Positions 6,090 to 64,000 of a DNA stretch of 64,000 nucleotides are shown here, in pieces; position 1 is the first letter of the stretch, and every line of letters begins with the position of its first letter. Under the pieces are notes generated by a model. That model ran no database searches, was not told where the DNA came from, and was given only the letters and a program-made list of their open reading frames with translations. The stretch lies in the NCBI GenBank assembly GCA_039583875.1, contig CM077149.1:26177194-26241193 (forward strand), written 5' to 3'. The DNA is from Platanthera guangdongensis. Its lineage: Eukaryota > Streptophyta > Magnoliopsida > Asparagales > Orchidaceae. The translations under genes and the position numbers were made by a program.

Positions 6090-6465
6090 AAAAGTGTCAA
6101 CACAAATAGACCATTTGTCGACAAAATTCTTGATGATGTCGACACAACTCTCATAGTATCGATATAGGCCTTCTTTATCAACTCGACACAGCTTCTGTGG
6201 AATGTGTCGACACAAGTTTTGTGTGTTAACACAACAGCTTCTAGTTTCGACAAAGTTGGTTTTGACAGAATTCTGGTGTGTGTCGATATAAGTCCTGTGT
6301 GTCGAGACAATTGTTGTCGATAGAATTCTGGAATGTGTCAACACAAGTCCTATGTGTTGACACAGTTGTTGTTGATAGATTTTGTGTGTCGATACAAGTC
6401 CTTTATGTCCACACAATCTGGCTCCTGGTTTCGACACAACTTTTCTCAAGTGTCGACACTTATAC
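6090..6465 (-). repeat. E1 U3 palindrome cluster, core GTGTCGACAC
   Basis: More than a dozen degenerate copies of TGTGTCGACACA and of its half sites (GTGTCGATA, GTGTCAACAC, TTGTCGACA) fill this stretch, usually spaced by AAGTCCT or TTGTTG. The core is self-complementary around GTCGAC. The cluster lies about 50 to 420 bases from the 5' end of the LTR and upstream of the TATA-like box, so in U3. Spurious small reading frames here are translations of the repeat. Confidence 0.85.
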
Positions 6466-6551
6466 TTAGAAAATTTTCCTGCATTTTCTTAACCTGCACA
6501 TTTAAACTCAACATCCCATCAAATACACATTAATGAATATCATTGAGTTAG

Positions 6552-7831
6552 GTGAGGCTTCTCCAAATCAGGTACACATTTTCCAATGTACCCAACAAAA
6601 TATTTATTGGATATTCTCAAGTTAGCAAGACTTATAGAATTTTTAATAAATCTACCCTTAAGAAAGAACAGTCTGTACATGTCTCTTTTGATGAAACTAA
6701 TATGTTTTATAGGGAGAAGAACACTTCTACCATAGATTCTTTTCAGGTACCGAATCTGTGTGAGAAACTGGATGAATTAATCCTAACACAAAAGGATACA
6801 TTACATCCTTCTCAACAGATTGCTGATGATGTCATTGATGAAGAAGATTCAGAAATCTATGCTGAAAATATTGTGGCTAATGAAATTCCAGCAGAGGAAT
6901 TAACACCATAAATAGTTGAAGAACCAACTCCACCTTTTGACTTTGTCACACTTAGAGATGAGCCTAGTTCTCAAGTGATTGGAGACATATCAGCTGATGT
7001 TCAAACAAGGCATCAATTGAATCAAGATTAGATGCATGCTTGTTTTATTTCTCATAATTAACCTCAATACATCAAAGATGTAGAACAGATCCCCACTGTA
7101 TCATTTCTATGCAAGTGAAACTCAATCAGTTTTAGAGATGTAGATTTTGGGACTTAGTTGCAAGACCCAAAGGCTATCTAATCATTGGAACCAAATTGGT
7201 CTTCAGAAATAAGTTGGATACTCAAGGAGTTATTGTATGAAATAAAGCTAAATTGGTAGCTCAAGGATACTCACAGGAGGAAGTCATAGATTATGATCAG
7301 ACTTTTGCTCCTGTTGCAAGATTAGAGGCTATCAGAATATTTCTTCCAATTGTAGCACTCAAGAAGTTCAAATTATATCAGATGGATGTGAAGAGTGCTT
7401 TTCGAAATGGAGAGCTCAAAGATAAAGTTTATGTAGAACAACCACCAAATTTTATCTCTCCAACTCACTCTTCTTATATTTTTAAACTTAATAAAGCACT
7501 TTATGTTCTTAAACAAGCTCCAAGTGCTTGGTATGAGACCCTTGCTAGTTTTTTTTAGAAAATAAATTTAGTAAAGACATGATTAAAACTTTATTTTTCA
7601 GAAATAATAAATCCAAAATTTTACTAGTACAAATATATATTGACAATATAATTTTTTGTTCTACTATTTCTAAACTATGCAAAAGTTTCTCTGATCTAAT
7701 GCATTCAAAGTTTGAAATGAGCAGCATAGGTGAACTATCCTACTTTCTTGGTTTACAAGTGAAGCAAACTACTGATGGCATTTTCATATCCCAATCTAAA
7801 TATGCTAAAGAGTTGTTTAACAGATTTGGGA
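6552..7831 (+). pseudogene. pol: E5: SIRE-like copia pol remnant (integrase end and RT)
   Basis: Plus-strand fragment closest in this window to E2 pol. It begins in the integrase C-terminus (KIFIGYSQVSKTYRIFNKS), passes an acidic linker and enters [62 protein letters not shown]. Stops fall in the linker, in the RT N-terminus and after 7556. The catalytic box reads IYIDNIIF instead of YVDDIIF, so the second aspartate is lost. The frame ends abruptly after NRFGM, where G1 begins at 7832. The 5' half probably lies left of E1 and the 3' half beyond the right edge. Confidence 0.82.
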
Positions 7832-7933
7832 TGTTAGGCAATCCTTTTCGCTTGAGCAAATATTGGCAGATAGCACTTATTTAATATCTAGAGGATTGGC
7901 AATCCTTCATGTTAGCGTGCAATTGAAAACAAC
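7832..7933 (+). repeat. G1 5' LTR, left part
   Basis: Starts TGTTAGG exactly where E5 RT homology stops and runs to the ACAAC (7929-7933) that C1 duplicated. Joined to 25296-25388 it would give an LTR of about 195 bp ending GCATCA. The left boundary is inferred; no target duplication is visible. Confidence 0.5.
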
Positions 7934-7944
7934 TGTTGAAGTAT

Positions 7945-8130
7945 TAGACCGCGCGGCCTTGCGGTCTGATACAGCGGTTTGTTGACCGAGCGGTCTGGCG
8001 GTCTCTCTCTGAAGCCTGGAGACCGGGCGGTCTATCGGTCTCCCTTTGCGGCCCGTTCTATCCTGCTGGAGTTGCCGAGCGGTTAACCCATCTGTCTAAC
8101 CGCGCGGCCTGTGCGGTCTCCTTTATTTCT
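7945..8130 (+). repeat. C1 U3 palindrome cluster, arms GACCG/CGGTC
   Basis: Five to six units of about 22 nt. Each has a left arm such as AGACCGC or GACCGAG and a right arm such as GCGGTCT, around 8 to 10 nt that also contain GCGGYCT. Some units (GACCGAGCGGTC) are near-perfect short palindromes. The same cluster is at 24930-25115 in the 3' LTR, where several arms carry substitutions (GGCGGTC to GGTAGTC, ACCGGGCGG to ACCAGGCGG). Confidence 0.88.
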
Positions 8131-8198
8131 AGCCGCTCAGTAATATAAATGTTTAGTCCCACATTGTTTGTATACTCTCTCTCATATCTCCTCCATTC

Positions 8199-8206
8199 TA
8201 TATAAG
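8199..8206 (+). promoter_or_regulatory. C1 LTR TATA box
   Basis: TATATAAG preceded by CTCC-rich sequence, about 70 bases downstream of the palindrome cluster; repeated at 25184-25191 in the 3' LTR. Position fits an LTR core promoter. Confidence 0.7.
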
Positions 8207-8305
8207 GGTGGTCATACCTTTGTAAATGATATCTTTTTTGGATAATAAAATTTCAATTATTCAAAAGTCTATCCGTTTGTTCTTTCTTATTCGCTACTTT
8301 CTACA

Positions 8306-12188: not shown

Positions 12189-13717
12189 TGTTGGAACACC
12201 CTATTACTAATTTGGGTCAGGATCACTATGTCTCTAGGAATTTATGTTTTGACCTTCTGTATAGATTATAGGTCAATTAGAATTAAGTCTAAGGGATCAG
12301 GAGTCTAGGTTTGGAAGCTGCCCTGAAGACCCAAGTTTTTCTGGAAACCAAGTCCAAATCGTCGAGCTCAGCACGACGCTTCGTCGAACTCCGGTCGACG
12401 ATCGTCTAGCTCAACTATTGACAGATCGTCGAGCTCCATTCGACGATCGCTGAGCTCAACCCTCATAATATCGTCGAGCTCTGGTCGACGATCGCTGAGC
12501 TCAGGTCGACGATTTTGACTCTGTACTGGATCCTTATCTCTGAGCTCAGTTCGACGATCTTTGAGCTCAGATCGACGACTTCTTTGCTGCTTGCATTTTC
12601 CAGTTCGCTGAGCCCAGCTCGACGATAGCAGAGCTCAGTTCGATGATTTCAATTATCTTTCAGAATTCAAATTCAAATCAGATAGAAGTTATTCTGCATT
12701 TAATTCAGAAGATCTGCCAGCCATTTTCATTTACTTCTGGAGCAAGTTTCAAGGAATTTTTCAAGGAATAATTCAGTGGACTTTCCTTCAGAACATTTTA
12801 TGCAATTAAGGCTGTAATTAATTCAGACCAACGGCTATCTTTGACAGAGCAATTTTCTATTCAGACTCAGAGAATAAAAGAGAATGTTTTTGAATCAGAC
12901 AAGGACAAGAGAATAGAGATTGACAAGAATAGGACACAACTCAATACACAGAGACTCTCTCAATCTTCTGTCAACAAGAATTCAGAAGAACACTCATCAA
13001 AAAGAGATCAAGTTTTTCAGATCTCTTCAGCTCTCAAGTGTTCAAGGCCAACATCATCTCAGACTTCAGACACTCAACATTTCAGCTTGCTGAAATCATC
13101 TTTTGCTGGAGATCTATCTTTGAAGGCCTATCACCCTCAGCAAAGCTCATCTTCCTGAAGATTTCAAGGACTCAGGGGGAGCTTTGACAATATCACTAAA
13201 TCCACATAGTCTTCTCAGTTGCTTGAGAAAGAGAAGACTGCCATCACTCTCTCAACCCCATTCTGTAAAGGGTTTTTCAAACTCCCTTCAAAAGTTTGAA
13301 TCTGGTTTTTGAGCACCTTGTCAAAAGCTCATTGGTGGCAAGACACCTGATCAAAAAATCTGATTTGGTTTTTGAGCACCTTATCAAAAGCTCATTGGTG
13401 CCCCGGACACCTGATCAACTCATCCTGCAGTGGATTCCTACCTAGGGTGGTAGAAGAGTGGATGTACCCAAGTTGGGGAACCACTATATTTCCTTGTGTC
13501 ATCTGGTTCTGCATGTTTTCTTTTTGTTTCTGGCCTAGATTTTCTTGTGCTTAGTTTCTGCATAGCTTAGTTTTATCTCTGCTTCCCTGCTTACACTCAT
13601 TACAACAATTGTTGTAAAGCTTTGCAAAAAGTTTTCTTTGTGTTTTTAAAAAAAGCACCATATACTCTATTCACCCCCCCCCCCTTTAGAGTATATCAGA
13701 TCTAGTTTCCCCTTTCA
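12189..13717 (+). repeat. E2 5' LTR (1529 bp)
   Basis: TGTTGGAACACC...CCCCTTTCA. Hairpin cluster 12357-12650 lies in its first third. Further on are a TCAAAAGCTCATTGGTG direct repeat (two copies, about 13320 and 13387), an A-run and a C-run (about 13674-13685) and a terminal AGAGTATAT inverted pair around it. Short open frames inside it also occur in the 3' LTR and have no family resemblance. Confidence 0.95.
12357..12650 (+). repeat. E2 U3 hairpin cluster, arms TCGTCGA/TCGACGA
   Basis: About ten units. Complete ones pair TCGTCGA with TCGACGA or close variants around a 7-nt centre such as GCTCCAT or GCTCTGG; others keep a GCTGAGCTCAG left part and TCGACGA right part. It begins about 170 bases into the LTR and repeats at 22950-23243 in the 3' LTR, where three single-base differences (for example GACGAC to GACAAC) fall inside units. 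Confidence 0.9.
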
Positions 13718-13847: not shown

Positions 13848-15923
13848 ATGGCCCAGAACAAAGATTATGCTAGCACCAGACCTCCAGTGTGCAATCTGTC
13901 AAAGTTTGCACATTGGAAAGCAAGGATTAGATTATACATGAACTCTATTGACGAAGATATTTTTAATTCTGTCTTAATAGTGTGTCCAAGACCTCCAGAG
14001 AGCACAAGCACTAATGCTGTTCCACCCCCATCAGGAACAGATGCTGACATCAAAAAGTGGAAAGTGGCTGATGCCAAGGCAACGAACATTCTAGCTCAGA
14101 CAATGTCAGATGACATTTTTCAGAAGGTAGCTGAATGTAATTCAGCCAAGGAAATCTGGGACAAGCTTTCAGAAATTGTCTCTGGCTCAGCTGATGAGAG
14201 AAAGGACAGAAGATCTCATCTCATCTCCCAATATGAGAACTTCAAGAAGGGAGAAACTGAGTCAGTGGGAGACATGTACAATAGATTAAGTCTAATTGTC
14301 AGTGAACTGAGGACATTAGACAAAGAAATCTCACTGACAGAACTCAATGACAAGATCCTAATGTGCTTCCCCAGCACTTGGGATTCAAGAATCTGGCCAA
14401 TTAAAGATGCCAGAAGCCTAAATGAGATTACCACTGAAGCCTTGTTGGGTAAGCTCAAATCTTATGAGCTACTCATCAAGAACAGAGAAGAAGAACAAAA
14501 GGCTGCTTCTCCAGCCACAAGAAAGGAGAAGACTATTGCATTCAAGGCAGCTGAGGATCTGCCTGAAGAAAAGGCCACAAGCAATGATGAACTTCTCAGC
14601 CTGTTGGCCAAAAGATTCTATAAGATGGCCAGGAAGGACTTCAGAAGAAGATCATACAAGGAGCAAGACAAGCCAAGGTATGACAAGTCCATTGGCAATA
14701 ACAAAGATATCATTTGCTTTGGTTGCAGGAAACCAGGGCACATAGTTCCTGACTGTCCAGAGAATAAGAACAAGGACAGAAGGGAAAGAAAAGAAAGAAG
14801 AAAGGAGAAGGACTCCAATAGGCATGGAAATAACAAACCTTCTTCCAGCAAAAATAAGCACACAAGGAAAGGATTTGTTGCTGAATCCTGGAGTGAGACT
14901 GAAGAGGAGTCAGAAGCCTCTTCCAGCTCAAGTGATGATGAGGATGATGCAGAGGAAAAAGAATTCTGCATGATGGCAATCAATGCCTCACAACACAACT
15001 CAGAGGAAGAGGAGTCAGAGTCAGACTCAGAGACTCAGCCTGAGGAAGATCAGGTAATCAGCTCTTTTGATTTCACTTCAGAAGATTTTAAACTTGAATT
15101 TAAAGCACTATGTTTAGACCTGCTAAAGTCTGAGAAAGAGATCATCTCTCTCAGAAATCAATTATCTGAACAAAGTGGTTTAAAATCAGAAAACCTCAAA
15201 CTCTCTCAGGAGTTGGAGAACTATAGGGAACAGATAGCTTCACTGAAGAGTGAGCTCTCTGAGGCCAAGAAGCTTGAAGAATCTCTCAATGGGAGAAGCA
15301 TCAAGCTGATGGACATCACAAGCACAGTGAACTCCAGATTCAACAGTACACTGGGCTTGGGTGCCTCATCTAGCCAACCTATTGTTCTAACAACCCCTAT
15401 CAAGTTCATTTCTGACAAAGGAAAGGGAGTTGTAGAGGTTGCTAGGAGAAATTCTGATCTGCCTCAGAAAACCAAGTCCCAGCAGAAATCGTCGAACGGA
15501 GATCGACGATCGCCGAATGAAGATCGACGATCGCCGAACGCAGCTCGACGATCTCAGGGAATATCGTCGAACGCAGATCGACGATCTCAATAGAGATCGT
15601 CGAACGCTGCTCGACGATCCCATATACCTGACCTCAGCCATAGTCGACCGTCGAACGGAGCTCGACGATCGGACCCACGATCATCGAACGCAGCTCCACG
15701 ATCGTCGAACAGAGGTCAAAGCTTTGGAAATTTTTCCAAAGGCAAGTCAAAATTGAATCCTAAGGGTTCTTCATCCCAAACCTTTAACCCTTATACTGAA
15801 TGGATTATACCTCCAAGGAGATATCATCCTGAAGGATATAAGAGTCAGCCAGGGAGATCTTTCATTTCTGAATTTAAAGGTTATCAACCTAGGCCCAAGG
15901 TAAACTGGGTCAAAAACAAGTGA
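13848..15923 (+). CDS. gag: E2 Gag polyprotein (one internal TAG)
   Basis: Capsid/nucleocapsid of a SIRE-like element. From the ATG at 13848 ([14 protein letters not shown]) the copia gag core spans about residues 10-230 ([46 protein letters not shown]). A CCHC knuckle has Cys290, Cys293, His298 and Cys303, followed by a very basic stretch, an acidic Ser/Glu region (345-400) and a coiled coil (about 415-475). The C-terminus translates the hairpin repeat as [16 protein letters not shown] text. A TAG at 15591-15593 interrupts the frame, which otherwise runs on to TGA at 15921-15923 (KVNWVKNK). The TAG fits a C-to-T change in a CAG codon. Confidence 0.88.
15488..15712 (+). repeat. Hairpin repeats inside the 3' end of E2 gag
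   Basis: Eight to nine units whose arms ATCGTCGA and TCGACGAT flank a 7-nt centre, mostly ACGGAGA, ACGCAGC or ACGCAGA. Many units are 24 nt apart, keeping the gag frame open and encoding Arg/Ser-rich repeats. The array ends about 210 bases before the gag stop and the CAG|GTG site. Confidence 0.9.
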
Positions 15924-19089: not shown

Positions 19090-19581
19090 TACTCAAGATT
19101 TTGAAAGCTAAAAATTGACCAAGACTAGGCAAAATTTCTGATTTTCCTTAGTACCTAAAATTTCTCTGATCTCTGAACTGCGCTCGACGATTTTCCCAAA
19201 GATCGTCGAACGGAGTTCGACGATTTCCAGAATCGTCGAACTGAGTTCAGCGCCCCTCAAACAGCATGAACTGTCTCCTTCGGTCAACGATCGTCGAACG
19301 ACGCTCGACGATTTTGTTCACTGAACGATCGTCGAACGGAGCTCGACGCCTTTCCAGATCGTCGAACGGAGATCGACGATTTTGGAGTCTCTTCAGATTC
19401 CTTTAGAAGCCTCGATCGTCGAACTGAGTTCAACGATCTTTCCTTTTCTGCGTCGAACCCTAATATAAAACTCTTTTTTCGTCGTCGTTCTCTCTTGCGC
19501 TTTCAATTTCTCTGCAAACTTTTCTTCCCTCCAAACAGTTCTACACTTGGTCGTTTTGTCTGTTGATTTTTTGCAGGTACC
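19090..19581 (+). repeat. E2 pol-ORF2 spacer with hairpin cluster and acceptor
   Basis: No gene. Between 19177 and 19455 are nine or so copies of the unit with arms TCGTCGA and TCGACGA around ACGGAGT, ACTGAGT, ACGACGC and similar centres. After this the sequence becomes T-rich and ends GATTTTTTGCAG|GTACC before the ORF2 ATG at 19582. A CGATCGTCGAACTGAG string near 19412-19428 is also found in the CHR1 LTR. Confidence 0.88.
19575..19576 (+). promoter_or_regulatory. Probable 3' splice site five bases before ORF2 ATG
   Basis: TTGATTTTTTGCAG|GTACC then ATGG. Strong pyrimidine tract and CAG|G; E4 has GTTTTTACAG|GC directly before its ORF2 ATG although surrounding sequence has diverged. Suggests ORF2 is translated from a spliced subgenomic RNA. 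Confidence 0.6.
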
Positions 19582-22500
19582 ATGGCCGTTTCTGTTGCTG
19601 TGCTCGCCGCCATGAAATTTGATGCCGGCTTTGACATCGATTTCGATTCCTTCAACACAACCGAACAAATCTTCCAAGACATTCTCAGCTTATTCAAAGA
19701 ACAGCATCTATCTGCCTTTATGACAACAAGAATCAAATTGGCCTCAGATGAAATTAAAGAATGGGTTTATACTGCCCACAACCTTGACACAAATACCATA
19801 GTTGGTTCCATTGGTGGCACCCAGGTACCTATGACTCCAGCAGTATTGACAGAGGTCTTTGGTTTAAGGAATGGTGAAGATTCTGCTGACCTTTCTGGAG
19901 AAGAGTTTGCTGATGTACTTGCCAGGATGGGTCATCCTGAGGGGAACCCTAGCAAGCTGTTTAAAAGGAACCTGTCTGTGGAATACAGGTTTCTGGCTGA
20001 TGTAGTAGGCAAGGTTCTCTTGGCCAAGCATTCTGCTCATGACACAATCTCCAGATATCAGCTCTGCCTTATGGGAGCTCTGGTAGATAGAAAAAGCTTG
20101 AACTGGGGAGAAGTATTCTTTGATTTGTTGAAGAAAAAGATAAACAAGACTTTTGTGAATTATGGAAGAATACTGGGAATCTTCCTCCAGGCTAAGTGTC
20201 CTACACTGCTAGTCTCCTCTGGAGTGCACATCAATGCCTCCAAGAGACTCACCTGTGCCCTTTTTCGGAAATGGGACAGGCAAATCTCCAAGCCCAGCAG
20301 GCCCTCTTCTTCTGGCCCTTCAGGCACCAGGACTCTAAGAGTCACTCCACCACAGGTCTCTGCCCCTGCAGAAGACCTGCCTGCTGCTAGTGCTGCTGCT
20401 TCCCCTCCTCCAAGTTCAACCTTACCCATTCCATCCACTACTACAGCTTCCTCTCCTATTACCATTTCCAGCCCATCTCCAACATCTACTCCATCTCCAG
20501 CAACAATCTCATCTCCACCAGCAGACCTCTTCCACCCCCTATTCTCCTATCCACCTCCAGATGTCACCCCCTCTCCATCAATTCCCTCCTTCACACTTCT
20601 GGATGAATCCTATATGGATGATTCCCCCTCCTCTCCTCCAGAATTACCATCCTCCTCCACCACTTTCCAAGACCTCCTCCACCAAATTTTTGATCAACCC
20701 ACCTTCACTCCCTCCATCTCCATCCCATTATCCTCCATCTCTACCATCCCCTCTCCTGAACCTTTCCTTCCACCCTTCAGCTCTCCTCCTCCAGCTCCAT
20801 CAGCCATTCCTGTACCCTCTACCTCTGCTCCCCTTGAGCATGTAGATCTCCCAGCCCTTGCTGATCAGTTGTATGAGCTCCTTGCACCTAGGCTCTCCCT
20901 TCTCATGGAGGCCTCTTTAGCTTCTCTACAACAATCAGTGGCAGCTCTCTCTGCCAGGCTGTCCTCTTTCCTTACTCCTATAGCAGCACCCCCAGCAGTG
21001 TGCCTTGATGCACAGGTCTCTGCATCCAGGCAGGGGGAGATGCCCTATGAAGCCAGCTTCCATGCTGCTGTTGCTGCTGCTGCTCCTCCTGCTGTTGTCT
21101 CTCATGCTACTACTACTGCTGTTGCTTCTGCTTCTGCTACTACTGCTATTCCAGTCATAGCAATAGACCTAAGGTCTCTGCTATCTACTTTTGATACTGC
21201 TTACTACTGCTGCCTCCCAGAGCCCATGGCTGTCCAGCCCTCAGAAGATCTGTCTAAGGCTCTAATGCCCTTCTCTTGCTGTGACCCCAAAATCATCTCT
21301 GATTTTCTTCTGTCAGTGACTGCTGCTTCTGATGTTACTGCTGCTGCTGCTACTGTAGACAATGCTGTGTCTACCTCTGAAGTTATATCTGCTGCTGAAG
21401 AAATTGTTTCTGATGAGCCCTTATCCCAGGATGTTTTGATGACAGAGGCTGTTGATTTTGAGCCTGCTGTAGAAGTTGTTGTCTCTAAAGCTGCTGCTGT
21501 CTCTCCTGAAGTTGCTAGTGCTGTTTCTGAAGCTGTTTCTGTTATAACTACTGCTGCTCCTGTATTTGTTGTAACATCTGCTGCTTCTGTATCTGTTACA
21601 TCTGCTGTTTCTGTTGCCCCATCAGCTGCTGTTCAGTTAAAAGAAAATTTGATGAAGAAGATTGATGCTTTGTATGATGAACAAAGTTCTGAATCTGAGG
21701 ATTATGCTACTGCTTCTGATGACTCATCTGCCACAATTGCTAAGAAAAGGAAAGCAAGAAGTAAGGCTTTGAAAAGGGTCCCTCCTGCCAAGATTAGAGA
21801 TGATAATGACATTCCATACTACATTCTGCATAATTGCCCAATCACTGAGCATTGGATGCAATTCTCTAAGAACCAGTTGAAGGCTATGAAGAAGAAGAGG
21901 AAATATGAGAAAGGTTCCTCTCAGTCCAAGCACCCTCATCCTCCTCCACCACCTCCAACTGATGCAGGTGCAGGTGGCAGCTCTGCCAGCTCAGGCCCTG
22001 CTAGAAGCCAGGCTCCCTACCAGCCTCATGCAAGAACATACCAAAGGGAAAGCCAGTCTAGGGGGTCTTACTCTAGAAGGGGATGATATAGGGGAAACCA
22101 AAGAGAAACTCAGGTTTACTCCAAAGGACACTCCAGGCAGCACCCTTACTCTAGGGGAGGACATGTTCCATCTGACACAACTTCTGGTCCTTTTCCCTAC
22201 AAGCTCAAAGATAATGTGACTGTCAGGACTCCTCACGAAACTACTTCCAACAGGTATGAGCCACCTGTTCCATTTGAGGATCCTGAGAAAAATCCTATGG
22301 CTTGGACTGCAAGAATGAAAGAGCTGGCTGCCTTGGATCAGATAAAGAAAGCAAAAGAACAAGGGCTAGACACTTCCAATATCTCTACAATGTCAGAACA
22401 AAGGCAAAAAGAATTAGAAAGGTATGCCTCCAGCAAATTTTTTTGATGCAGACAGATACATGGAGTTGCATCCAGCTGCAGTGGTTCCCAGGGCTTCAAA

Positions 22501-22781: not shown

Positions 22782-24310
22782 TGTTGGAACACCCTATTAC
22801 TAATTTGGGTCAGGATCACTATGTCTCTAGGAATTTATGTTTTGACCTTCTGTATAGATTATAGGTCAATTAGAATTAAGTCTAAGGGATCAGGAGTCTA
22901 GGTTTGGAAGCTGCCCTGAAGACCCAAGTTTTTCTGGAAACCAAGTCCAAATCGTCGAGCTCAGCACGACGCTTCGTCGAACTCCGGTCGACGATCGTCT
23001 AGCTCAACTATTGACAGATCGTCGAGCTCCATTCGACGATCGCTGAGCTCAACCCTCATAATATCGTCGAGCTCTGGTCGACGATCGCTGAGCTCAGGTC
23101 GACGATTTTGACTCTGTACTGGATCCTTATCTCTGAGCTCAGTTCGACGATCTTTGAGCTCAGATCGACAACTTCTTTGCTGCTTGCATTTTCCAGTTCG
23201 CTGAGCTCAGCTCGACGATAGCAGAGCTCAGTTCGACGATTTCAGTTATCTTTCAGAATTCAAATTCAAATCAGATAGAAGTTATTCTGCATTTAATTCA
23301 GAAGATCTGCCAGCCATTTTCATTTACTTCTGGAGCAAGTTTCAAGGAATTTTTCAAGGAATAATTCAGTGGACTTTCCTTCAGAACATTTTATGCAATT
23401 AAGGCTGTAATTAATTCAGACCAACGGCTATCTTTGACAGAGCAATTTTCTATTCAGACTCAGAGAATAAAAGAGAATGTTTTTGAATCAGACAAGGACA
23501 AGAGAATAGAGATTGACAAGAATAGGACACAACTCAATACACAGAGACTCTCTCAATCTTCTGTCAACAAGAATTCAGAAGAACACTCATCAAAAAGAGA
23601 TCAAGTTTTTCAGATCTCTTCAGCTCTCAAGTGTTCAAGGCCAACATCATCTCAGACTCCAGACACTCAACATTTCAGCTTGCTGAAATCATCTTTTGCT
23701 GGAGATCTATCTTTGAAGGCCTATCACCCTCAGCAAAGCTCATCTTCCTGAAGATTTCAAGGACTCAGGGGGAGCTTTGACAACATCACTGAATCCACAT
23801 AGTCTTCTCAGTTGCTTGAGAAAGAGAAGACTGCCATCACTCTCTCAACCCCATTCTGTAAAGGGTTTTTCAAACTCCCTTCAAAAGTTTGAATCTAGTT
23901 TTTGAGCACCTTGTCAAAAGCTCATTGGTGGCAAGACACCTGATCAAAAAATCTGATTTGGTTTTTGAGCACCTTATCAAAAGCTCATTGGTGCCCAGGA
24001 CACCTGATCAACTCATCCTGCAGTGGATTCCTACCTAGGGTGGTAGAAGAGTGGATGTACCCAAGTTGGGGAACCACTATATTTCCTTGTGTCATCTGGT
24101 TCTGCATGTTTTCTTTTTGTTTCTGGCCTAGATTTTCTTGTGCTTAGTTTCTGCATAGCTTAGTTTTATCTCTGCTTCCCTGCTTACACTCATTACAACA
24201 ATTGTTGTAAAGCTTTGCAAAAAGTTTTCTTTGTGTTTTTAAAAAAAGCACCATATACTCTATTCACCCCCCCCCCCTTTAGAGTATATCAGATCTAGTT
24301 TCCCCTTTCA
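22782..24310 (+). repeat. E2 3' LTR (1529 bp)
   Basis: Same length and ends as the 5' copy, about nine substitutions by eye. It is followed by ATTGGT before C1 sequence resumes; ATTGGT is also what follows the 5' LTR (two bases plus the first PBS bases). Confidence 0.95.
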
Positions 24311-24911: not shown

Positions 24912-24918
24912 GGGGAAG
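24907..24918 (+). other. C1 polypurine tract
   Basis: TTGAGGGGAAG directly before the TGTTGAAG start of the 3' LTR; primer site for plus-strand DNA synthesis. Confidence 0.85.
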
Positions 24919-27796: not shown

Positions 27797-30433
27797 CGAA
27801 AGTCTTTAATTTCAAGTTAGCAAATAACCTAGAGGGGGGTGAATAGTATTTCTGGTTTATTATTATACTCTTTGACTTAATATGTTCTGAGTTAGTGGTT
27901 TTTCAGCTTTTAAGACAAAACACAAAAGCACACACAGAGTTTATAGTGGTTCCCTAGATTATGGGTACATCTACTCTCCTCCCACCTATATAACTTCCAG
28001 TTAGATAAGGCACTTCTCCAAAAACCCAGCTCCAAAAAGCTTACACCTCTGATCCCGTAGGATCTCTCAGTCTCCTCCAAGACTTACAACTCAGGAACAA
28101 ATCTCTACCTCAAAGCAAACTGCTCCTACATCTCAGTGATCAAACTGATCACCTATCTCAGACTTGAACTCATGTTTTACAACTCAGGCTATGGAGGATA
28201 GCCCAACCTCAGAGAGAATGACTCTCCTATGGCTCAGGCATAAGACCCTACCTCAGATCCAAATCTATATCCTACACTCAGACCCAAAGTTCCAACACTC
28301 AGAGAGTATTACTCTCCTACAGCTTAGACAATACTACCCTACCTCATGTTCAAAGCCCTAAAACTCAGATCCACAAAGGATCCTACCTTAGACCCAAAGG
28401 TCATACACTCAGATCCAAGACTGGATCCTACACTTAAGCAAAACTTCCCTACCTCTAGTACAAAGGCCTTACAACTCAGATTCAAAAGTATCCTAAAGAA
28501 ATGAAATAGTTTGAGTTAATTTGACACAAAGAAATTTCTATGTGTCTGCTACTAGAGCTGAGTTATCTCAGCTTTAACTATCTTCACAGCAGCAAGAATA
28601 AGGTCTTATGTGAATAACTGCCTCAGCTCGAAGTAACTCAGAAATAATTTTCTGAACTTGTTGAAGGAGACTAAAGTCTTGAAAGATCTTGAGCTCTTTA
28701 AACAGCTAACCTGAACATGCAATAAACTGAAGGCTCTGCTTCTTCTCTTTATCAAAAACAAGTCTAAACTTGTTGTAGCAGAAGAAAATGCTACAGCTAT
28801 CTGGAAATAACTTTTGGTTCAGCTGGAATGACTTCAAGCTTTTGGTTCGGCAGCAATGGCGAGGAAGATGAAGTCCAGCCGCAAAAAGTGAATCCATAAA
28901 ATTTAAATTCTTCCTTGAGAAGCTGTCCCTTTTATCTTCTGTCGATTAATGGCTCCAAGAAGCTGTGGGGACCACCTGTTGATGATAGTTGCTATTTGCA
29001 TTAACAAAAGAAGACTTATAGTAGCCCTCTAGCGCTATTTGGCGTGTTCTGTAGCTTTACCGCAACTTATTTTTACTCTATTGACTTTTGTTGACTTTGG
29101 TTGACATCATCAGTTATGGACTAAGAAAATTTCTCAAATTCGCTCAAGGTGTTGAGTGTGTTAAATGAACAAGCTTCACTCAATGCCAAGAACCCTTAGT
29201 CAACTTTCTAAACCATTCTGCATCATAGCCATTGAGAGCGTTGAGTGATCCTTCCTCACTCAGTGCCTCTAGCCTTAGCTATTTCTTCACTAGTCTGGAG
29301 GCGTTGAGTGAGCTAACCTCACTCGATGCTTTCTGCCTTTGACTTTCTTCTTTATTAGGCGTTGAGTGAACATGCTTCACTCAATGCTTCTGGACTTTGT
29401 CGATTTATGTATTCTTCTTAAGCTTTTACTACTGCAGCAACACTCAATGCTTTTACTTTCTGTCGTTGATAATGTTGAGTGATCTTTCCTCACTTAGCGC
29501 CTTTGAACCTAGACATCTTCTATCATATTGGGATTTATCATAACACGACACCTTTGGCTTTGTCGTCGAGTGAGCTATGTTCACTCAAAACTTCTGGACT
29601 TTGTCGATTATTCATCCTGCCAATTCTTAGGCATTGACAGATTCAGCGATACTCGACGATGGCAATGATTAAACTGTCATCACACAATGCATGTAGACTT
29701 GGTCGCAGAATTGATTTGCAGACTGCATGGATTTGAGTGTATACAACTAACTTAACACTTTATGGCTCAACGCTTCTGCACCTAGCCGATTTTCTTTCTC
29801 TTTTTTCTTTGGCTTTTAATGAAACAACATGATGTTGAGTGAACAGTCTTCACTCAATGATTCTGGACTTAACTAATTTTCTATCCCTTTCTCCTAGAGC
29901 TTTGACAGAAATAACACGACTCAATGCTTATGGCTATATGGCACTGAGTGAGTTGACTTCACTCAATGCATGCGGACTTAGCCACTTTTCCACCTTGCCA
30001 AAACTTAAGGCTTTGACTTCCTGCACTTTCTCAGGGATGTTAGCTGTATGGCGTTGAGTGAACTGACTTAACTCAATGCCTGTGAACTTAGTCATTTTTC
30101 TCCATTATCACTGGCTTTTGGTTCATCTGGTGTTGAATGTGCTTCCTTCACTCAACGCCTTTGACTTATTGACTTTCTTCACCAACTGCCTTGATATTTT
30201 GCGTTGAATCGGCTTGATTCACTCAACGCCTATGGACTTAGGCAATTTCCTGCCTTTCCTGTCAGCTTCTTTGAGTCCACCGGTCAATGTCACTTGAACC
30301 ACCTATCCAATCAATATGACATAGACTTACCTGCAAGCATGAACTGATACATACATAAAAGACAACTATGTGTATACCATTGACTTGTTTGACTTCTTAC
30401 AAATCTGTGATATTGGGATCAATGGACCCAACA
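27797..30433 (-). repeat. E3 3' LTR (about 2.6 kb)
   Basis: Inner border is clear: the PPT complement ATCTCCCC follows CCAACA. Outer border is inferred by alignment with the E1 LTR end (CGAAAG for TGAAAG). It is longer than the E1 LTR because the U3 hairpin zone is expanded to about 1.1 kb. On the minus strand a GATAAAAGG near 28929-28937 could be the TATA element, followed by a transcribed part rich in ACTCAG/CCTAC repeats as in E1. Confidence 0.75.
29140..30235 (-). repeat. E3 U3 hairpin cluster, arms GCGTTGAGTGA/TCACTCAACGC
   Basis: Twelve or more units of about 29 nt: 11-nt arms GCGTTGAGTGA and TCACTCAACGC (often ..AATGC) around a 7-nt centre such as GCTAACC, ACATGCT, ACAGTCT or GTTGACT. 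Units are separated by 50-90 bp of unlike sequence beginning TGGACTTAG or TTTGACTT. It is the longest cluster in the window and lies on the U3 side of the LTR. Confidence 0.9.
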
Positions 30434-41814: not shown

Positions 41815-42130
41815 GTCGTGTGCGTGCTCCGGAACTGCTCGGGAGACTCCGACGATGCAGGAATACTGCGCACGACCACTGGACTTACTGCGCACGACCA
41901 CTGGTCGTGCACCACTGTTCGTGCGCATTACACCTCCTTTTTCATAACCCTGTCTCGGTAATCGTACGAGCACTGGCCGTAGTGCGCACGACCACTAGTC
42001 GTGCGCCACTGCTCGTGCGCATATATGCTGATGCTTCTTGTCTAGGTTGTAGGTTTATTTGGAAAAGCCGCACGATCATCGACCTACAGTGCGCACGACC
42101 ACTGGTCGTGCGCCACTGATCGTGCGCACT
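41815..42130 (+). repeat. G3 U3 palindrome cluster, GCGCACGACCA/TGGTCGTGCGC
   Basis: Five or six copies of a palindrome with 11-nt arms GCGCACGACCA and TGGTCGTGCGC around one base, plus half sites (CTGTTCGTGCGC, CTGATCGTGCGC). It ends about 17 bp before the TATA box, which makes the U3 position especially clear. Confidence 0.9.
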
Positions 42131-42146
42131 GCTTCTGCTGCCTCCG

Positions 42147-44439: not shown

Positions 44440-44775
44440 AATCGGCGAGAATGACCAGCCGATCGGTGAGAATCGATCGTCGAGAATCACTAAGGATCGG
44501 CGAGTATCGGCTAGAATCGGCGAGAACCAGTCAGCGAGAATCGGTCGGCGAGAATCACCAAGCAGATTCGGCGAGTATCAATCAGCGAGAATGCCCGATG
44601 ATTCACGTTGAATCGCAGATTGACGATTCTCGTCGATCGTCGAGAATCACTGACGATACACGTCGAACAGGGTCGACGATACACGCCGATCGGCGAGAAT
44701 CAGAGAACTATTCTCGATGATTCTTGTTGATCGGCGAGAATCAGAGACTTATTCTCGACGATTCTCGTCGACCCT
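44440..44775 (-). repeat. T1 U3 hairpin cluster, GATTCTCG/CGAGAATC
   Basis: About a dozen units with arms GATTCTCG and CGAGAATC around TCGATCGT or TTGATCGG centres; includes CGTCGA/TCGACG pairs like those of E2. Located about 230-565 bases from the LTR 5' end, upstream of the TATA-like element. Confidence 0.87.
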
Positions 44776-45005
44776 CGGCCGACTATACTTACCAATCCTT
44801 CGAGGCAACATTTGCCCAACCCGATGATTCTTTAAGGCAACACTTTGCCCATAACCCCATTCAGGACGGTGATTGGCAACCTTTACCAACACAGTCAATT
44901 ATCCAACTTCTCCACATCTCTTATGTACGACCCTGCAGGCTCATATCGCGTTGGCAGTGAGATTACATGTTTGATCACTTCCAGATCACAATGGTAACTC
45001 CAACA

Positions 45006-47035: not shown

Positions 47036-47043
47036 ATGTCCAG

Positions 47044-50690: not shown

Positions 50691-50696
50691 TTTATA
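50691..50696 (-). promoter_or_regulatory. Possible G2 LTR TATA box
   Basis: Minus-strand ACTATAAATTT directly downstream of the palindrome cluster; also in the 5' LTR near 63694-63699. Confidence 0.6.
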
Positions 50697-50714: not shown

Positions 50715-51025
50715 CGGACACGGGGTCGCACACGGCCGTGTGCCAGGCCGTGTGGACGGTTCCTAGGCGGTTCCTGGACGGTTCCTCACGAAAAGGCGTG
50801 TCTGGTAGTGGGCCGTGTCAGATGACACGGGTATAGACACGGCCGTGTGTGCGGCCGTGTTCCCCAGACACGGGTTGGTCGGTAGCCGTGTGCAAAGATG
50901 ACACGGGTATGCACACGGGCGTGTGCCATACCGTGTGAGGCTCCATTGTCTGCGCCCAAATTCTTCAGCTCCAGGTGCATAGGACACGGGTGGACACACG
51001 GCCGTGTGTCTGGCCGTGTGCACCA
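50715..51025 (-). repeat. G2 U3 palindrome cluster, ACACGGCCGTGT
   Basis: About a dozen copies of CACACGGCCGTGTG, GACACGGGT, ACGGGCGTGTGCC and half sites. Repeated at 63718-64000 in the 5' LTR, where a 12-bp stretch (TGTGCCAGGCCG) is missing, showing turnover within the array. Ends about 20 bp before the TATA-like box. Confidence 0.9.
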
Positions 51026-53369: not shown

Positions 53370-55341
53370 TGTAACACCCCCATCCGTCGCATGGCATATA
53401 ACAGAAGGTCCAGCTGGAACCCGACGCCATATACCACAGACAGTCGGAAGGGTTACTAAATGAATAAATCAAACCAACCAATTAATACTACACGTCCTAA
53501 ACACAGAGCATTCTAGCGGAAGATTTTAAAGTTGAAGAACCCAAACTTAAATCCATCAAATATGAATGTCCACATTTACAACTACAAGAACGAACCCCAA
53601 ATACACTGAAACAGGTACATGGCCTTATGGCCTTACAAATGTTCATAAATATAACATGTCTTACATACATCGGCTCGCAGGCCGGCCACACATGAGAAAT
53701 GTAAAAACAACTATTCTACGGCCTTCTAGGGCCAGCACAGCAACATGGGCTCCAGCCCGCTATTTGGCGCTCGGCTCCGCAGCACCTGCAAGCACATACC
53801 ACCGCACGGTGGCAAATAAAGTAACGGTCAGCTAAAAGCCGACCAAATTATAACGACCCCGCCCCTTACTCGGGACGGCGGTGCTCTTTCCCTGCAAAAC
53901 ATTAGCCCAACAATATATATATATCGCAATAATAATTCGCCACAGGTGTAGGCTCGCACGGCCAAACACCTCGTGCACTCAGGGCACATTCATGGTGAAC
54001 CCTGACAAATCAGTGCATTCACCACCATCCCTAGGATGGCAACAACATGTGAGCATTTAGCCTTTCTGACCACCGTCTAAGGCTCCGACTATGCCAACGG
54101 CCAGTCCCCGTCTTCGGGTCTCTCGCACCGAACCACATAGCCTAGGTCCAATTCCACTTGCCCGTTGCTCACGCCGCATGTCCAATTTAAGGAACTTTGC
54201 GCGGGCCAAGCTTCTCTCGGATCCCAAATTTCCCAAAACAATCTCATAACCCAGTTATGATCAAGGCCGGTTCCCAGACCGCCAAGTTAGCAGAACACGT
54301 TTCCGCTCAGTTTTCCGGGTGCGCCTTGAAGCTAACCTTCAAGGATCCCTGCTGCAATCTACCGCGTAGAAACCCGAAAAATCCAAAGCACGGAGTCTTC
54401 TCCGGCAAAACCATATCAAATGCAACATCACCGATCCAGACAAAACACGTCCGGGTAGGCTTCACACACAATGCCTATGCCCGTACTTACGATTCCGGGC
54501 TCTACATGCAACACAAGGGGGACTATTCCCGTCAACCCCAAGGAACACCACGCACTCACCGCATACTCGCGGGAGCGGGATTCCCTATGCAGAAAGAAAG
54601 AGATTCAAGCGCTCGAGTTGAGAATCGTTACCCTTGTAGTCCGTTTTGGCGCCATGGAAAAACTACGCGGTTAGAACTCTTCGCAATGACCTTCCCTCCA
54701 CGGATCCGCTCTCCGATTTCGAAACAGTGCTCCGATGCTCCGCCGGCGGCCGGAAACCTCCTTCTTCTTCCTCTCCTCTCTCACTTTGGAAGGGGAGAAC
54801 TTTGGAGAGAAAATGAGGGAATAACTCCCTATTCCCGGCCTTAACAGAGCAGGATCTCATCTGGGCCATTGGATCCTAATTAAAGAAAATGAACGGCTCG
54901 GATCTGCACAAAATTCCCCAGACCTGGGCCGCACACGGCTTGGCACACGGCCGTGTCCAAGGCCGTGTGCCTCGATCCAGGCACGATCGTCGAACTGAGA
55001 AATGCACACGGGCCAAGACACGCCCGTGTCTGACCTGACACGCCCGTGTCGGGTTCCTCAACACGCCCGTGTTCGAGGGCGTGTCACGCATAACCGCACG
55101 GCAACGGACACGACCCCTCAGGACACGGGTCTGGACACGGGTTGGCACACGCCCGTGTCGGATGACACGCCCGTGTCATCCGGCCGTGTTTTCTGACCGT
55201 GTCCTTCTCGGGTTGGAAACGGCCAAAAATCACCAGCCAGACACGGCCTTGGACACGCCCGTGTCCTAGGCCGTGTACCCCTACAGGCACCAAAAACTCT
55301 TTTTCCGCGACCGACTCGCACACGAAATTCGGGGCGTTACA
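53370..55341 (-). repeat. CHR1 3' LTR (1972 bp)
   Basis: TGTAACACCCCC...GGGGCGTTACA. GC-rich with a palindrome cluster at 54925-55290, close to the LTR 5' end in minus sense. Long opposite-strand open frames (54197-54844) recur in the other LTR but resemble no family. Confidence 0.95.
54925..55290 (-). repeat. CHR1 U3 palindrome cluster, ACACGCCCGTGT
   Basis: About 15 units: GACACGCCCGTGTC, CACACGGCCGTGTCC, ACACGGGT and half sites, repeated at 61572-61937. The motif family is the same as in G2 although the elements belong to different gypsy lineages. Embedded near 54984 is CGATCGTCGAACTGAG, identical to a piece of the E2 hairpin array. No clear TATA element was found downstream. Confidence 0.9.
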
Positions 55342-60016: not shown

Positions 60017-61987
60017 TGTAACACCCCCATCCGTCGCATGGCATATAACAGAAGGTCCAGCTGGAACCCGACGCCATATACCACAGACAGTCGGAAGGGT
60101 TACTAAATGAATAAATCAAACCAACCAATTAATACTACACGTCCTAAACACAGAGCATTCTAGCGGAAGATTTTAAAGTTGAAGAACCCAAACTTAAATC
60201 CATCAAATATGAATGTCCACATTTACAACTACAAGAACGAACCCCAAATACACTGAAACAGGTACATGGCCTTATGGCCTTACAAATGTTCATAAATATA
60301 ACATGTCTTACATACATCGGCTCGCAGGCCGGCCACACATGAGAAATGTAAAAACAACTATTCTACGGCCTTCTAGGGCCAGCACAGCAACATGGGCTCC
60401 AGCCCGCTATTTGGCGCTCGGCTCCGCAGCACCTGCAAGCACATACCACCGCACGGTGGCAAATAAAGTAACGGTCAGCTAAAAGCCGACCAAATTATAA
60501 CGACCCCGCCCCTTACTCGGGACGGCGGTGCTCTTTCCCTGCAAAACATTAGCCCAACAATATATATATATCGCAATAATAATTCGCCACAGGTGTAGGC
60601 TCGCACGGCCAAACACCTCGTGCACTCAGGGCACATACATGGTGAACCCTGACAAATCAGTGCATTCACCACCATCCCTAGGATGGCAACAACATGTGAG
60701 CATTTAGCCTTTCTGACCACCGTCTAAGGCTCCGACTATGCCAACGGCCAGTCCCCGTCTTCGGGTCTCTCGCACCGAACCACATAGCCTAGGTCCAATT
60801 CCACTTGCCCGTTGCTCACGCCGCATGTCCAATTTAAGGAACTTTGCGCGGGCCAAGCTTCTCTCGGATCCCAAATTTCCCAAAACAATCTCATAACCCA
60901 GTTATGATCAAGGCCGGTTCCCAGACCGCCAAGTTAGCAGAACACGTTTCCGCTCAGTTTTCCGGGTGCGCCTTGAAGCTAACCTTCAAGGATCCCTGCT
61001 GCAATCTACCGCGTAGAAACCCGAAAAATCCAAAGCACGGAGTCTTCTCCGGCAAAACCATATCAAATGCAACATCACCGATCCAGACAAAACACGTCCG
61101 GGTAGGCTTCACACACAATGCCTATGCCCGTACTTACGATTCCGGGCTCTACATGCAACACAAGGGGGACTATTCCCGTCAACCCCAAGGAACACCACGC
61201 ACTCACCGCATACTCGCGGGAGCGGGATTCCCTATGCAGAAAGAAAGAGATTCAAGCGCTCGAGTTGAGAATCGTTACCCTTGTAGTCCGTTTTGGCGCC
61301 ATGGAAAAACTACGCGGTTAGAACTCTTCGCAATGACCTTCCCTCCACGGATCCGCTCTCCGATTTCGAAACAGTGCTCCGATGCTCCGCCGGCGGCCGG
61401 AAACCTCCTTCTTCTTCCTCTCCTCTCTCACTTTGGAAGGGGAGAACTTTGGAGAGAAAATGAGGGAATAACTCCCTATTCCCGGCCTTAACAGAGCAGG
61501 ATCTCATCTGGGCCATTGGATCCTAATTAAAGAAAATGAACGGCTCGGATCTGCACAAAATTCCCCAGACCTGGGCCGCACACGGCTTGGCACACGGCCG
61601 TGTCCAAGGCCGTGTGCCTCGATCCAGGCACGATCGTCGAACTGAGAAATGCACACGGGCCAAGACACGCCCGTGTCTGACCTGACACGCCCGTGTCGGG
61701 TTCCTCAACACGCCCGTATTCGAGGGCGTGTCACGCATAACCGCACGGCAATGGACACGACCCCTCAGGACACGGGTCTGGACACGGGTTGGCACACGCC
61801 CGTGTCGGATGACACGCCCGTGTCATCCGGCCGTGTTTCTGACCGTGTCCTTCTCGGGTTGGAAACGGCCAAAAATCACCACCCAGACACGGCCTTGGAC
61901 ACGCCCGTGTCCTAGGCCGTGTACCCCTACAGGCACCAAAAACTCTTTTTCCGCGACCGACTCGCACACGAAATTCGGGGCGTTACA
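60017..61987 (-). repeat. CHR1 5' LTR (1971 bp)
   Basis: Near-identical to 53370-55341; differences include GCACATTCATGG to GCACATACATGG, CCGTGTTCG to CCGTATTCG, GCAACGG to GCAATGG and one T fewer near 61847. Confidence 0.95.
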
Positions 61988-61992
61988 ACTGT

Positions 61993-62640
61993 CATCTGGG
62001 GGAGGGCTAAAAAGATGCCCATATTCTTCACGAGGCGAGTAATATAGGGTGCTACGCAAATAGACCCTATACGAGGGGTGTCAGCCTGATGAAGAATAAA
62101 CTGGGCTAGAAGATAACCGAGATGTAGAGGATATCGTGATGTCATGCTGTAGAGGTATAACAGATCCTGCCTACTAACAACTCCGGAGCTTTCGCCCCGA
62201 CCGCTCAACGTGTGGCTGAGTAGATGGTGGATGTAATGGAGGGCGGGGGAAATCAATTTGGATGCCTTAGATCTCTTGGCCTCGCAGGCGCCAGTGTCAA
62301 AAGAAATTTGGCGCCATATACCACCGGCCATATCACGGTTGGGGAGTTCAAAGTGGAGTTCGGGGTAGGCAGCACTGAAAAGGAACGACTCCTCATACAC
62401 CCCTAAGTATTGGGTGAATTGGAGCATAGTGAGTGTATAAAATGTGCCACCCACTCGAAATGAAACAATCCCCTCGGGCGCGTGCGGTGCGTCGATGAAA
62501 TTAGGCCTAAAGCTGGAATAAAATGACGATAGGAACTCTAAGGTGAGTTCCCTAAAGCCTAATTCCTCTATGGCAAAAAATTGATTCCACCCTGTTACAG
62601 AAATCAAGAACCTTTTTAGCGGAGCGATTCCCGCCTGTCA
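61993..62640 (-). pseudogene. G2 ORF1 (Athila ORF-1-like), N-terminal part
   Basis: Minus strand reads ISVTGWNQFFAIEELGFRELTLEFLSSF, EGIVSFRVGGTFYTLTMLQFTQYLGVYEES, ALHYIHHLLSHTLSGRGESSGVVSRQDLLYLYSM and APYITRLVKNMGIF, the pattern of the plant Athila ORF-1/gag-like family. No ATG precedes the conserved part, and the primer site is only about 40-75 bases upstream, so the N-terminus and leader have been lost. CHR1 interrupts the frame after ACAGT. Role in the element presumed structural. Confidence 0.7.
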
Positions 62641-62670
62641 CGCGGGTGACCCGGGTTTGTTCCCCGGCAA

Positions 62671-62684
62671 TGGCGCCAAAAACT
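62671..62684 (-). other. G2 primer binding site (tRNA-Asp-like)
   Basis: Minus strand AGTTTTTGGCGCCATTGCCGG begins at the LTR end (TCA at 62685-62687); same type as G3, diagnostic for Athila/Tat-like gypsy elements. Confidence 0.85.
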
Positions 62685-64000
62685 TGATGATTTTTTTTGC
62701 TAACAAGTAATAATTCAATGTGATTTCATTCTACATTCTAATACAATTATGTAGATGGACTTAACTAGATTGAATTAGCATTCAGGCAAGCGCAACTATC
62801 AATCGTAATATATGAGAAATCTACATCTCGTGTCGTATTCCACAGGGTCGTTTCAACTATTCATACTCACCCTCCCTTTATTTTAATATCTCTAAATAAA
62901 AGTGATATTTAAACTACATTAACCTAACTATGACCAATTGGATGATTCAGTATTGGAGAAATAAAAATGATAACAACATGAAGCTTTTAAATAATTACAT
63001 GAACAAATCCATTTATCAATTCAATTCTAAGCGATCATGACATGAAAAGAGTGTTACATTTGTGCAATGTAAAGATTAATTTTTCATCAAAATTCTCTCT
63101 CGAGCAATTCCAAATCTAAACCTAAGATAGTAAATTTTCTCTCGAACAATTCACAACACTCAAGTTCGCATTAAACAAAATACCTTTATTATTACATAAA
63201 TTCATGGATTTTATTTCTAAATTAACATGAATCCTTTTATCCGTGTTCTAATTTTCCAAACAGAATATCTATCGATCATAGAGTTTGAAATACAAAGGGA
63301 ATTATCATCACAATATGAACATACCAAAAGCATTGCAAATAACCAATTTCTCAATCTAGCCAATTGCAAATTTTGTAGAATAAATAAGTAATTCAAAGGG
63401 ATGATTAAACTCTTTGTTTGATTACATAAACACAAATAAAATACTACAAATATAACATAAACAAGGTGATACATGATTACTAGAATGTTCAAAGCAAAAT
63501 TCATGCAAATTAAAACATAAATTGAAGATGGATCATCAAGAGGAAGGAAGGATTCAAAGGGTTAATGATTAAATAAAAATTACATAAGAAATACCCTTCA
63601 ATCCTCCTTGTCTTGGATGCTCCTCTTCGGCCTCCAGCAGTTCTCCAATGCAGAAATGATCCAGAAGTTCTAAACAATTTTTTCTACAGGAAATTTATAG
63701 TTCCCTTGCAAACAGGTCGGACACGGGGTCGCACACGGCCGTATGGACGGTTCCTAGGCGGTTCCTGGGCGGTTCCCCACGAAAAGGCGTGTCTGGTAGT
63801 GGGCCGTGTCAGATGACACGGGTATAGACACGGCCGTGTGTGCGGCCGTGTTCCCCAGACACGGGTTGGTCGGCAGCCGTGTGCAAAGATGACACGGGTA
63901 TGCACACGGGCGTGTGCCATACCGTGTGAGGCTCCATTATCTGCGCCCAAATTCTTCAGCTCCAGGTGCATAGGACACGGGTGGACACACGGCCGTGTGT
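62685..64000 (-). repeat. G2 5' LTR, cut by window edge
   Basis: Near-identical to 49682-51010. Differences include CTTGC to TTTGC, CACCTATC to CAACTATC, CTCTCG to CTATCG and a 12-bp deletion in the palindrome cluster (63718-64000). Confidence 0.93.

Follow-up and report, generated by a model that had tools for sequence, protein, structure and literature searches.

Arrays of palindromic sites near the 5' end of copia and Ty3 long terminal repeats in the orchid Platanthera guangdongensis

The RM boxes of 13 Sireviruses are palindromic, high-copy motifs that occupy the upper half of the long terminal repeat (LTR), form CpG islands and are followed by a TATA box; the same motif recurs upstream of the ENV-like open reading frame (ORF) (PMC2829016). 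That paper describes the RM as specific to Sireviruses, with a CGG-CCG core in all elements but one, Tnd-1. Palindromes in maize Sirevirus LTRs are hotspots of small RNA, as cited in PMC10760457 and PMC5311732. The former also reports that no motif is commoner in maize Helitrons than the maize Copia palindrome, which sets a precedent for motifs that different element classes have in common, and that maize Ty3 elements are generally without an obvious structural peak. The LTR of the tobacco copia element Tnt1 has repeated U3 cis-elements with a role in transcription (PMC3601003, PMC2829016). Here we describe palindromic arrays in LTR retrotransposons of a 64,000-nt stretch (26177194-26241193; the window) of the 4.25-Gb Platanthera guangdongensis assembly. 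A sequence-only reading of the window had claimed that every family bears a cluster of short inverted repeats near the LTR 5' end, mostly with a motif of its own and often ahead of a TATA-like box. It had overlooked that this architecture, as given in PMC2829016, is the Sirevirus RM box, which is extended here to other copia and Ty3 lineages.

We propose, with moderate confidence, that the arrays serve as cis-regulatory platforms close to the promoter, where dimeric DNA-binding proteins recognise the dyad sites. Such a platform would consist of many dyad-symmetric, mostly CpG-containing sites with preferred half-site spacing in the 5' part of the LTR (U3). It would often precede a TATA-like box and would recur ahead of the third ORF (ORF3) of Sirevirus-like elements. 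We infer that dimeric proteins, probably of the host, bind cooperatively and activate the LTR and ORF3 promoters or maintain them in an open state. Unrelated copia and gypsy elements may have converged on these sites, or exchanged them, because they use the same proteins. In chromovirus-like elements, folding of a strand, as RNA or as a cruciform, may also contribute at the ACACGNNCGTGT units.

Extent and position of the arrays

The window was compared with two 100-kb blocks, B1 and B2, placed at round coordinates on G000:C1 and G000:C2 and fixed before inspection; these 264 kb were scanned, and repeats in the blocks carry the prefixes b1_ and b2_. Three stretches of one GTGTCGACAC-bearing family (L001, L002 and L035) were also examined. 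Elements were labelled Sirevirus-like from reverse transcriptase (RT) grouping, ORF3 and a polyC run. The chromovirus-like label was given for Ty3 Pol domains, for a Chromo match that at 14.7 bits stays below the cut-off of 25.1, and for LTR ends that we take to be of chromovirus type; the Athila-like label was given for a PF03078 match and a primer-binding site (PBS) that is presumably of Athila type. Hairpins were counted as perfect inverted repeats (arms of at least 7, loops of at most 30) against local dinucleotide shuffles. The array statistic was the highest joint count in 500 bp of a 6-mer and its reverse complement, with both strands represented and a cut-off of at least 9 in the 264-kb scan and 8 in the position test.

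The arrays are real and widespread in the sampled DNA. Short inverted repeats number 357 in the window and 109-163 in ten shuffles, a comparison of the kind that the sequence-only reading had proposed. Two-strand 6-mer arrays occupied 167 of 2625 overlapping windows across the 264 kb and none of 1050 shuffled windows, which rules out a chance origin. These 167 array windows merge into 36 stretches, of which several are weak or of simple sequence, for example the CTTCAA and TGAAAA repeats of B1. Sixteen LTR pairs were each tested against 60 shuffles, scanned at the same step as the data; 13 exceeded the shuffles by at least one of the two tests and 10 by both. The C1 LTR passed by hairpin count only (4 vs 1 in shuffles), and b1_2 (10 vs 3) and b2_10 (7 vs 6, a difference of one) by the array statistic only. 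The pairs are not 16 independent cases, since CHR, b1_3 and b2_12 belong together, and b1_4 is related to b1_5. For these counts, b1_4 and b1_7 were merged as a single LTR interrupted by the b1_5 insertion, b2_9 (of which the first 1497 nt are covered) was merged across its interruption by b2_10, and the b1_3 LTR was re-bounded. Bounds are approximate for ATH (51300), b1_3 (68050), E1, E3, G3 and T1. An AT-microsatellite artefact accounted for the internal repeat b1_6, which was dropped from the LTR counts.

Most sampled LTR retrotransposons bear a dense array of palindromic sites just inside the promoter end. At the threshold of 8, array windows made up 103 of the 235 windows centred in the 5' half of an LTR, compared with 10 of 229 for the 3' half, and internal regions had 41 among 1496; shuffles in this position test were scanned more coarsely than the data. 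The internal windows include the regions upstream of ORF3 in E2 and b2_14 and an AT-rich repeat in b1_5. The claimed location near the LTR 5' end was borne out in general, with exceptions outside LTRs in the E2 gag and upstream of ORF3, the latter including the minus-strand cluster at 39804-40068 (perhaps the family that had been called E4). The plain CpG observed/expected ratio was 0.84-1.96 in 15 of 16 arrays (0.54 in E3), compared with 0.57 in the whole window and 0.76 in both blocks; array G+C was 0.39-0.63.

A TATA-like box lay within 200 bp downstream of 11 of 19 arrays (10 of 17 in LTRs, including E1, C1, G3 and T1, and one of two upstream of ORF3), where 1.1 were expected in all. Arrays of unknown orientation, second LTR copies, b1_2, b2_10, the E2 gag array and the ORF3 regions of b1_1 and of the second window copy stood outside this test; the b1_2 array is followed downstream by TATAAATA.

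An array precedes each of the four third ORFs found. In E2 the LTR motif is used again there, with 8 dyads in the LTR, 8 in gag and 7 upstream of ORF3 (at most three mismatches), and in b2_14 there are 27 CTACTCGAGTAG-type sites in the LTR and 13 upstream of ORF3 (at most two mismatches). This match between LTR and ORF3 is known for E2 and b2_14; the LTR of the second window ORF3 copy was not located. The ATG of the E2 ORF3 directly follows TTTTTTGCAG, a splice-acceptor-like site, and the homologous ORF3 regions of the second window copy and of b1_1 retain both the dyads and an acceptor-like site. Nine proteins pass E 0.001 for the E2 ORF3, all from Platanthera orchids.

The ORF3 product could itself read the arrays and counter silencing, with elements that have no ORF3 parasitising it. 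The arrays ahead of ORF3 are consistent with such a reader, as are the TCGTCGA dyads in the chromovirus-like b2_12 and the pairing of two ORF3 types with two motifs, E2-like with TCGTCGA and the weakly similar b2_14 ORF3 with CTACTCGAGTAG. Yet C1, T1 and b1_2 fall outside the Sirevirus-like RT group and use other motifs (T1 only partly), just two motif types were seen, and the E2 ORF3 gave a sub-threshold match to PF20167 and otherwise no Pfam match at E 1e-4. We regard an element-encoded reader as very improbable.

Dyad geometry and arm pairing

Several motif classes have a preferred spacing of half-sites. The dyad ATCGTCGA-N7-TCGACGAT occurs at 120,524 places genome-wide and at none in a backward-read control. 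At any gap of 1-25 nt the same half-sites form 133,279 dyads (12 in the control), so about 90% of them have exactly 7 nt, and the spacers are diverse among the matches listed. In the 264 kb, the commonest single gap accounts for 19 of 30 TCGTCGA, 7 of 10 CACGACC and 8 of 9 TTGAGTG dyads. The motifs GTGTCGACAC and CTACTCGAGTAG are gapless palindromes with no loop, and GTGTCGACAC-N4-GTGTCGACAC was found 9,722 times (6 in the control). Two extended forms were also counted: ACACGGCC-N4-ACACGGGCGTGT-N4-GG gave 87,966 and 87,805 matches on the two strands against 0, and C-N5-ACACGGGCGTGT-N5-G gave 140,951 and 140,898 against 31 and 46. Separately, ATCGTCGA/TCGACGAT half-sites with a gap of 13-14 nt occur in a ~34-bp tandem family on G000:C1 (~2604124-2604403 and 4374318-4374415).

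A recurrent function had been claimed from the common architecture and place, and the 5' position, the enrichment of TATA-like boxes, the preferred dyad spacing and the arrays before ORF3 support it. Of the candidate functions, binding sites for a dimeric protein are favoured on sequence patterns: the N7 gap is exact, and the palindromes that have no loop show no covariation of their arms.

The main competitor is that the repeats of U3, a region transcribed into the genomic RNA near its 3' terminus, fold into RNA or cruciform hairpins that act in the element cycle or are diced into silencing small RNAs. With any length beyond 360 nt trimmed off, all 19 arrays gave better folds than their shuffles, at z -1.9 to -10.8 compared with -1.4 to +0.8 for five control stretches, and maize Sirevirus palindromes provide a parallel as small-RNA hotspots (cited in PMC5311732 and PMC10760457). 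Better folding is nevertheless expected of any array that mixes a motif with its reverse complement.

Compensatory arm substitutions were a further check that had been proposed: if pairing as such mattered, the two flanks of a unit would be expected to vary in concert. Right flanks were permuted among the units of one array in eight motif sets, the C1 and T1 motifs lying outside these. In the 49 ACACGNNCGTGT units, 4.80 of 8 flank positions paired, compared with 3.68 ± 0.16 after permutation (0 of 500), so that arms pair more within than between units. By element, five of six gave at most 36 of 2000 permutations, and the Athila-like element, with 4 units, gave 313 of 2000. Among the 100 ACACGNNCGTGT matches listed, the second flank position paired in 97 (G:C 46, C:G 39, T:A 11, A:T 1) and the third in 65; these sites are all on G000:C1, comprise 24 distinct flank pairs and are same-family copies that represent few independent events. 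The ACACGNNCGTGT class retains paired arms, through selection or through arm-to-arm correction. In the seven other sets, no significant arm covariation was detected (47, 101, 142, 336, 437, 497 and 500 of 500 permutations), TCGTCGA being nearest to significance with 47; the flanks of GTGTCGACAC and CTACTCGAGTAG do not covary. These classes behave like fixed double-stranded sites. The suggestion of hairpin RNA thus survives for ACACGNNCGTGT alone. As a general account we consider hairpins unlikely, though the strongest of the alternatives: GTGTCGACAC and CTACTCGAGTAG have no loop, and an exact 7-nt gap with diverse spacers is needless for a hairpin.

Motif sharing across lineages

Motifs were said to differ in most families and to be unrelated in sequence. 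Several do differ, but TCGTCGA dyads, GTGTCGACAC and ACACGNNCGTGT each occur in unrelated elements, and some of this reuse crosses superfamilies. TCGTCGA-N7-TCGACGA is present in the Sirevirus-like E2 (LTR, gag and upstream of ORF3), in two more regions upstream of ORF3, in the chromovirus-like b2_12 (one perfect and four one-mismatch sites) and in b2_10 (two sites). Among the matches listed on G000:C1, TCGTCGA dyads also stand between ACACGGGCGTGT units at ~2.53, 2.54, 3.16, 3.17, 3.61 and 3.62 Mb. Matches in T1, b1_96 and b2_8 are mostly two to three mismatches away and less secure. Arrays of GTGTCGACAC occur in the Sirevirus-like LTRs E1 and b1_60 and in the chromovirus-like family L001/L002/L035, whose internal region aligns with the CHR Pol over residues 6-975 at 54% identity. 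The ACACGNNCGTGT motif is common to chromovirus-like LTRs and the window's Athila-like element. This reuse across unrelated families suggests shared control proteins rather than chance.

In a comparison of 10 copia RT rows, a Sirevirus-like group including E2, E3, b1_1 and b2_14 was 47-75% identical within, and C1, T1 and b1_2 were 23-42% identical to it and so lie outside. All three of these lineages bear arrays, T1 by the 264-kb scan and C1 and b1_2 by one test each. CHR, b1_3, b2_8, b2_12 and L035 carry Ty3 RTs, which were compared among themselves. The RTs of CHR and b2_12 are 92% identical, and past the array their LTRs align at 74-75%; the array region itself is alignable only in patches of 40-55 nt. 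The arrangement of an array turns over while its motif persists. For the E2 family, 40 of 2552 candidate copies were scored, all at least 97% identical and hence too alike to gauge constraint.

The arrays might instead be a mutational by-product of RT template switching, arm-to-arm correction, tandem duplication and family amplification, with no selection. Higher-order tandem repeats of ~102 bp in b2_12 and ~36 bp in L001/L002 are of the kind that such processes leave, arm-to-arm correction would yield the ACACGNNCGTGT covariation, and family amplification accounts for the huge copy numbers. A by-product would not be expected to favour the 5' half of the LTR over other parts of the element, to be coupled to TATA-like boxes, to present an identical long dyad in unrelated elements or to repeat the LTR motif upstream of ORF3 in E2 and b2_14. 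We judge this origin improbable, and somewhat more so than hairpins.

Several observations weigh against dimer-bound platforms. The claim that every family has a cluster holds for E1, C1, E2, E3, G3, T1 and the Athila-like and chromovirus-like elements and fails for b1_1, b2_11 and b2_13, whose LTRs showed no excess over 60 shuffles by array statistic or hairpin count. The b1_1 element has a TCGTCGA array upstream of ORF3 and none in its own LTR. Eight of the 19 arrays (E2-LTR, E3, CHR, b1_3, b1_96, b2_9, b2_12 and b2_14 ORF3) have no TATA-like box within 200 bp, and of these E3 had been claimed to have one; for b2_14 ORF3 there is none within 300 bp. In L001/L002 the GTGTCGACAC array (~36-bp tandem, ~930 and 1490-1950) lies ~570 bp past a TATA-like stretch, the reverse of the usual order. 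Spacing is looser in some classes: gaps of ACACG..CGTGT peak at 14 (99), 2 (71) and 26 (41) of 279, C1 GACCG..CGGTC has no clear gap preference, and b1_2 sites mostly point in the same direction. Plain dimer binding does not predict the arm covariation of the ACACGNNCGTGT class. Finally, E2 and b2_10 arrays have a common 60-nt stretch (82%), and shared motifs could, to judge from such similarity, have spread by recombination.

A bolder version of the regulatory proposal, in which the same trans-acting proteins read copia and gypsy dyads as one code, and a Sirevirus ORF3 anti-silencing activator is exploited by chromovirus-like elements through acquired arrays, is a long shot. Should the arrays prove to be regulatory sites in common use, a large share of the retrotransposons of a 4.2-Gb genome could be under the control of a few proteins, and the dyads would be exact baits for isolating them. 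A feature described as Sirevirus-specific would become a wider plant LTR design, and the conflict between promoter need and small-RNA targeting would be testable over many families in one host.

Features of the window and comparison with known systems

Arrays and associated features of the window are collected in Table 1. The E1 array lies ~140-480 bp inside a minus-strand Sirevirus-like LTR that begins near 6598; a homologous Sirevirus-like LTR on another chromosome assigns it there despite the neighbouring copia pol, and an origin internal to that pol was ruled out. In E2, positions 15488-15593 of the gag array are inside the gag ORF and the remainder is beyond an in-frame UAG (15591), the frame staying open to ~15922. 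The gag-end dyads encode RS-like peptide repeats, and the UAG falls mid-array. An LTR pair in T1 was ruled out, 44963-49115 being a 2.07-kb tandem duplication (97.8%) of a minus-strand copia RT region. A 217-aa antisense open frame, identical in both CHR LTRs (54191-54844 and 60838-61491, plus strand), is probably mechanical.

Table 1. Positions of arrays and neighbouring features in the window
Feature	Position	Strand	Remarks
E1 TATA-like box	near 5927	-	
E1 LTR array	6116..6461	-	GTGTCGACAC-type palindromes, partly decayed
C1 LTR, 375 nt	7931..8305	+	partner 24916-25290, 97.3%
C1 array	7946-8119	+	AGACCG/CGGTCT sites
C1 TATA-like CTATATAAGG	near 8199	+	then PBS-like TGGTATCAGAGC
E2 5' LTR array	12358..12626	+	TCGTCGA-N7-TCGACGA dyads
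E2 second array	15488..15708	+	same dyad, 3' end of gag
E2 third array	19184..19440	+	same dyad, upstream of ORF3
TATA-like box TATAAAA	19464..19470	+	28 nt past ORF3 array, 118 nt ahead of ATG 19582
E2 ORF3, env-like position	19582..22086	+	PF20167 match below cut-off
E2 3' LTR array copy	22951..23231	+	
E3 LTR array	29152..30225	-	TTGAGTGA/TCACTCAA dyads; TTGAGTG-to-CACTCAA gap 9 in 8/9 local cases
Second ORF3 copy	38970-39691	-	E2 ORF3 N-terminal part, 49-62% identical
Array upstream of second ORF3 copy	39804..40068	-	TCGTCGA-N7-TCGACGA
G3 LTR array	41870..42131	+	GCGCACGACCA-N-TGGTCGTGCGC; TATA-like box at 42147
T1 3' LTR array	44447..44771	-	GATTCTCG/CGAGAATC mixed with TCGTCGA half-sites; TATAAAAGG near 44376
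Athila-like outer element, LTR array	50718..51020	-	ACACGGCCGTGT; TATA-like box near 50696
CHR (chromovirus-like) 3' LTR array	54933..55277	-	ACACGGGCGTGT units
CHR (chromovirus-like) 5' LTR array	61578..61922	-	66-410 nt from LTR start
Athila-like outer element, second LTR array copy	63715..64000	-	cut by window end

VANC proteins counter the silencing of VANDAL transposons, which are DNA transposons with an element-encoded reader. The arrays resemble that system in having element-specific repeated motifs in non-coding regions and differ in that ORF3 is here only a candidate reader. For Tnt1, long dyad arrays that cross superfamilies are not described in the available text of PMC3601003 and PMC2829016. 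In the literature found, chromovirus and Athila LTRs were not reported to have arrays of this type, nor were copia-gypsy sharing or covariation of the arms described, and the string ACACGGCCGTGT retrieved unrelated papers only. The maize Sirevirus palindromes are similar in clustering in the LTR cis-region and in their strong predicted folding; unlike in maize, Ty3 LTRs here hold some of the strongest arrays.

The closest likeness is to the Sirevirus RM boxes. E2 and b2_14 have at least 8 palindromic copies per element, LTR arrays lie mostly in the 5' half, all four ORF3 copies found have an array in front, and E2 and b2_14 reuse the LTR motif there. E2 also has ORF3, a polyC run and two polypurine tract (PPT) copies, although multiple PPTs are not clear. 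In contrast to the RM boxes, the CGG-CCG core is absent from E2 (TCGTCGA/TCGACGA), E1 (GTGTCGACAC), b2_14 (CTACTCGAGTAG) and E3 (TTGAGTGA/TCACTCAA), and C1 and b1_2 have CGG/CCG yet fall outside the Sirevirus-like RT group. The arrays also reach three copia lineages that are not Sirevirus-like, as well as chromovirus-like and Athila-like elements. One dyad is common to copia and gypsy, one array lies at the end of gag, and the arms of one class are compensatory. With the Sirevirus architecture published and this wider spread, sharing and covariation unreported in the literature found, the arrays are best described as an extension of a known feature.

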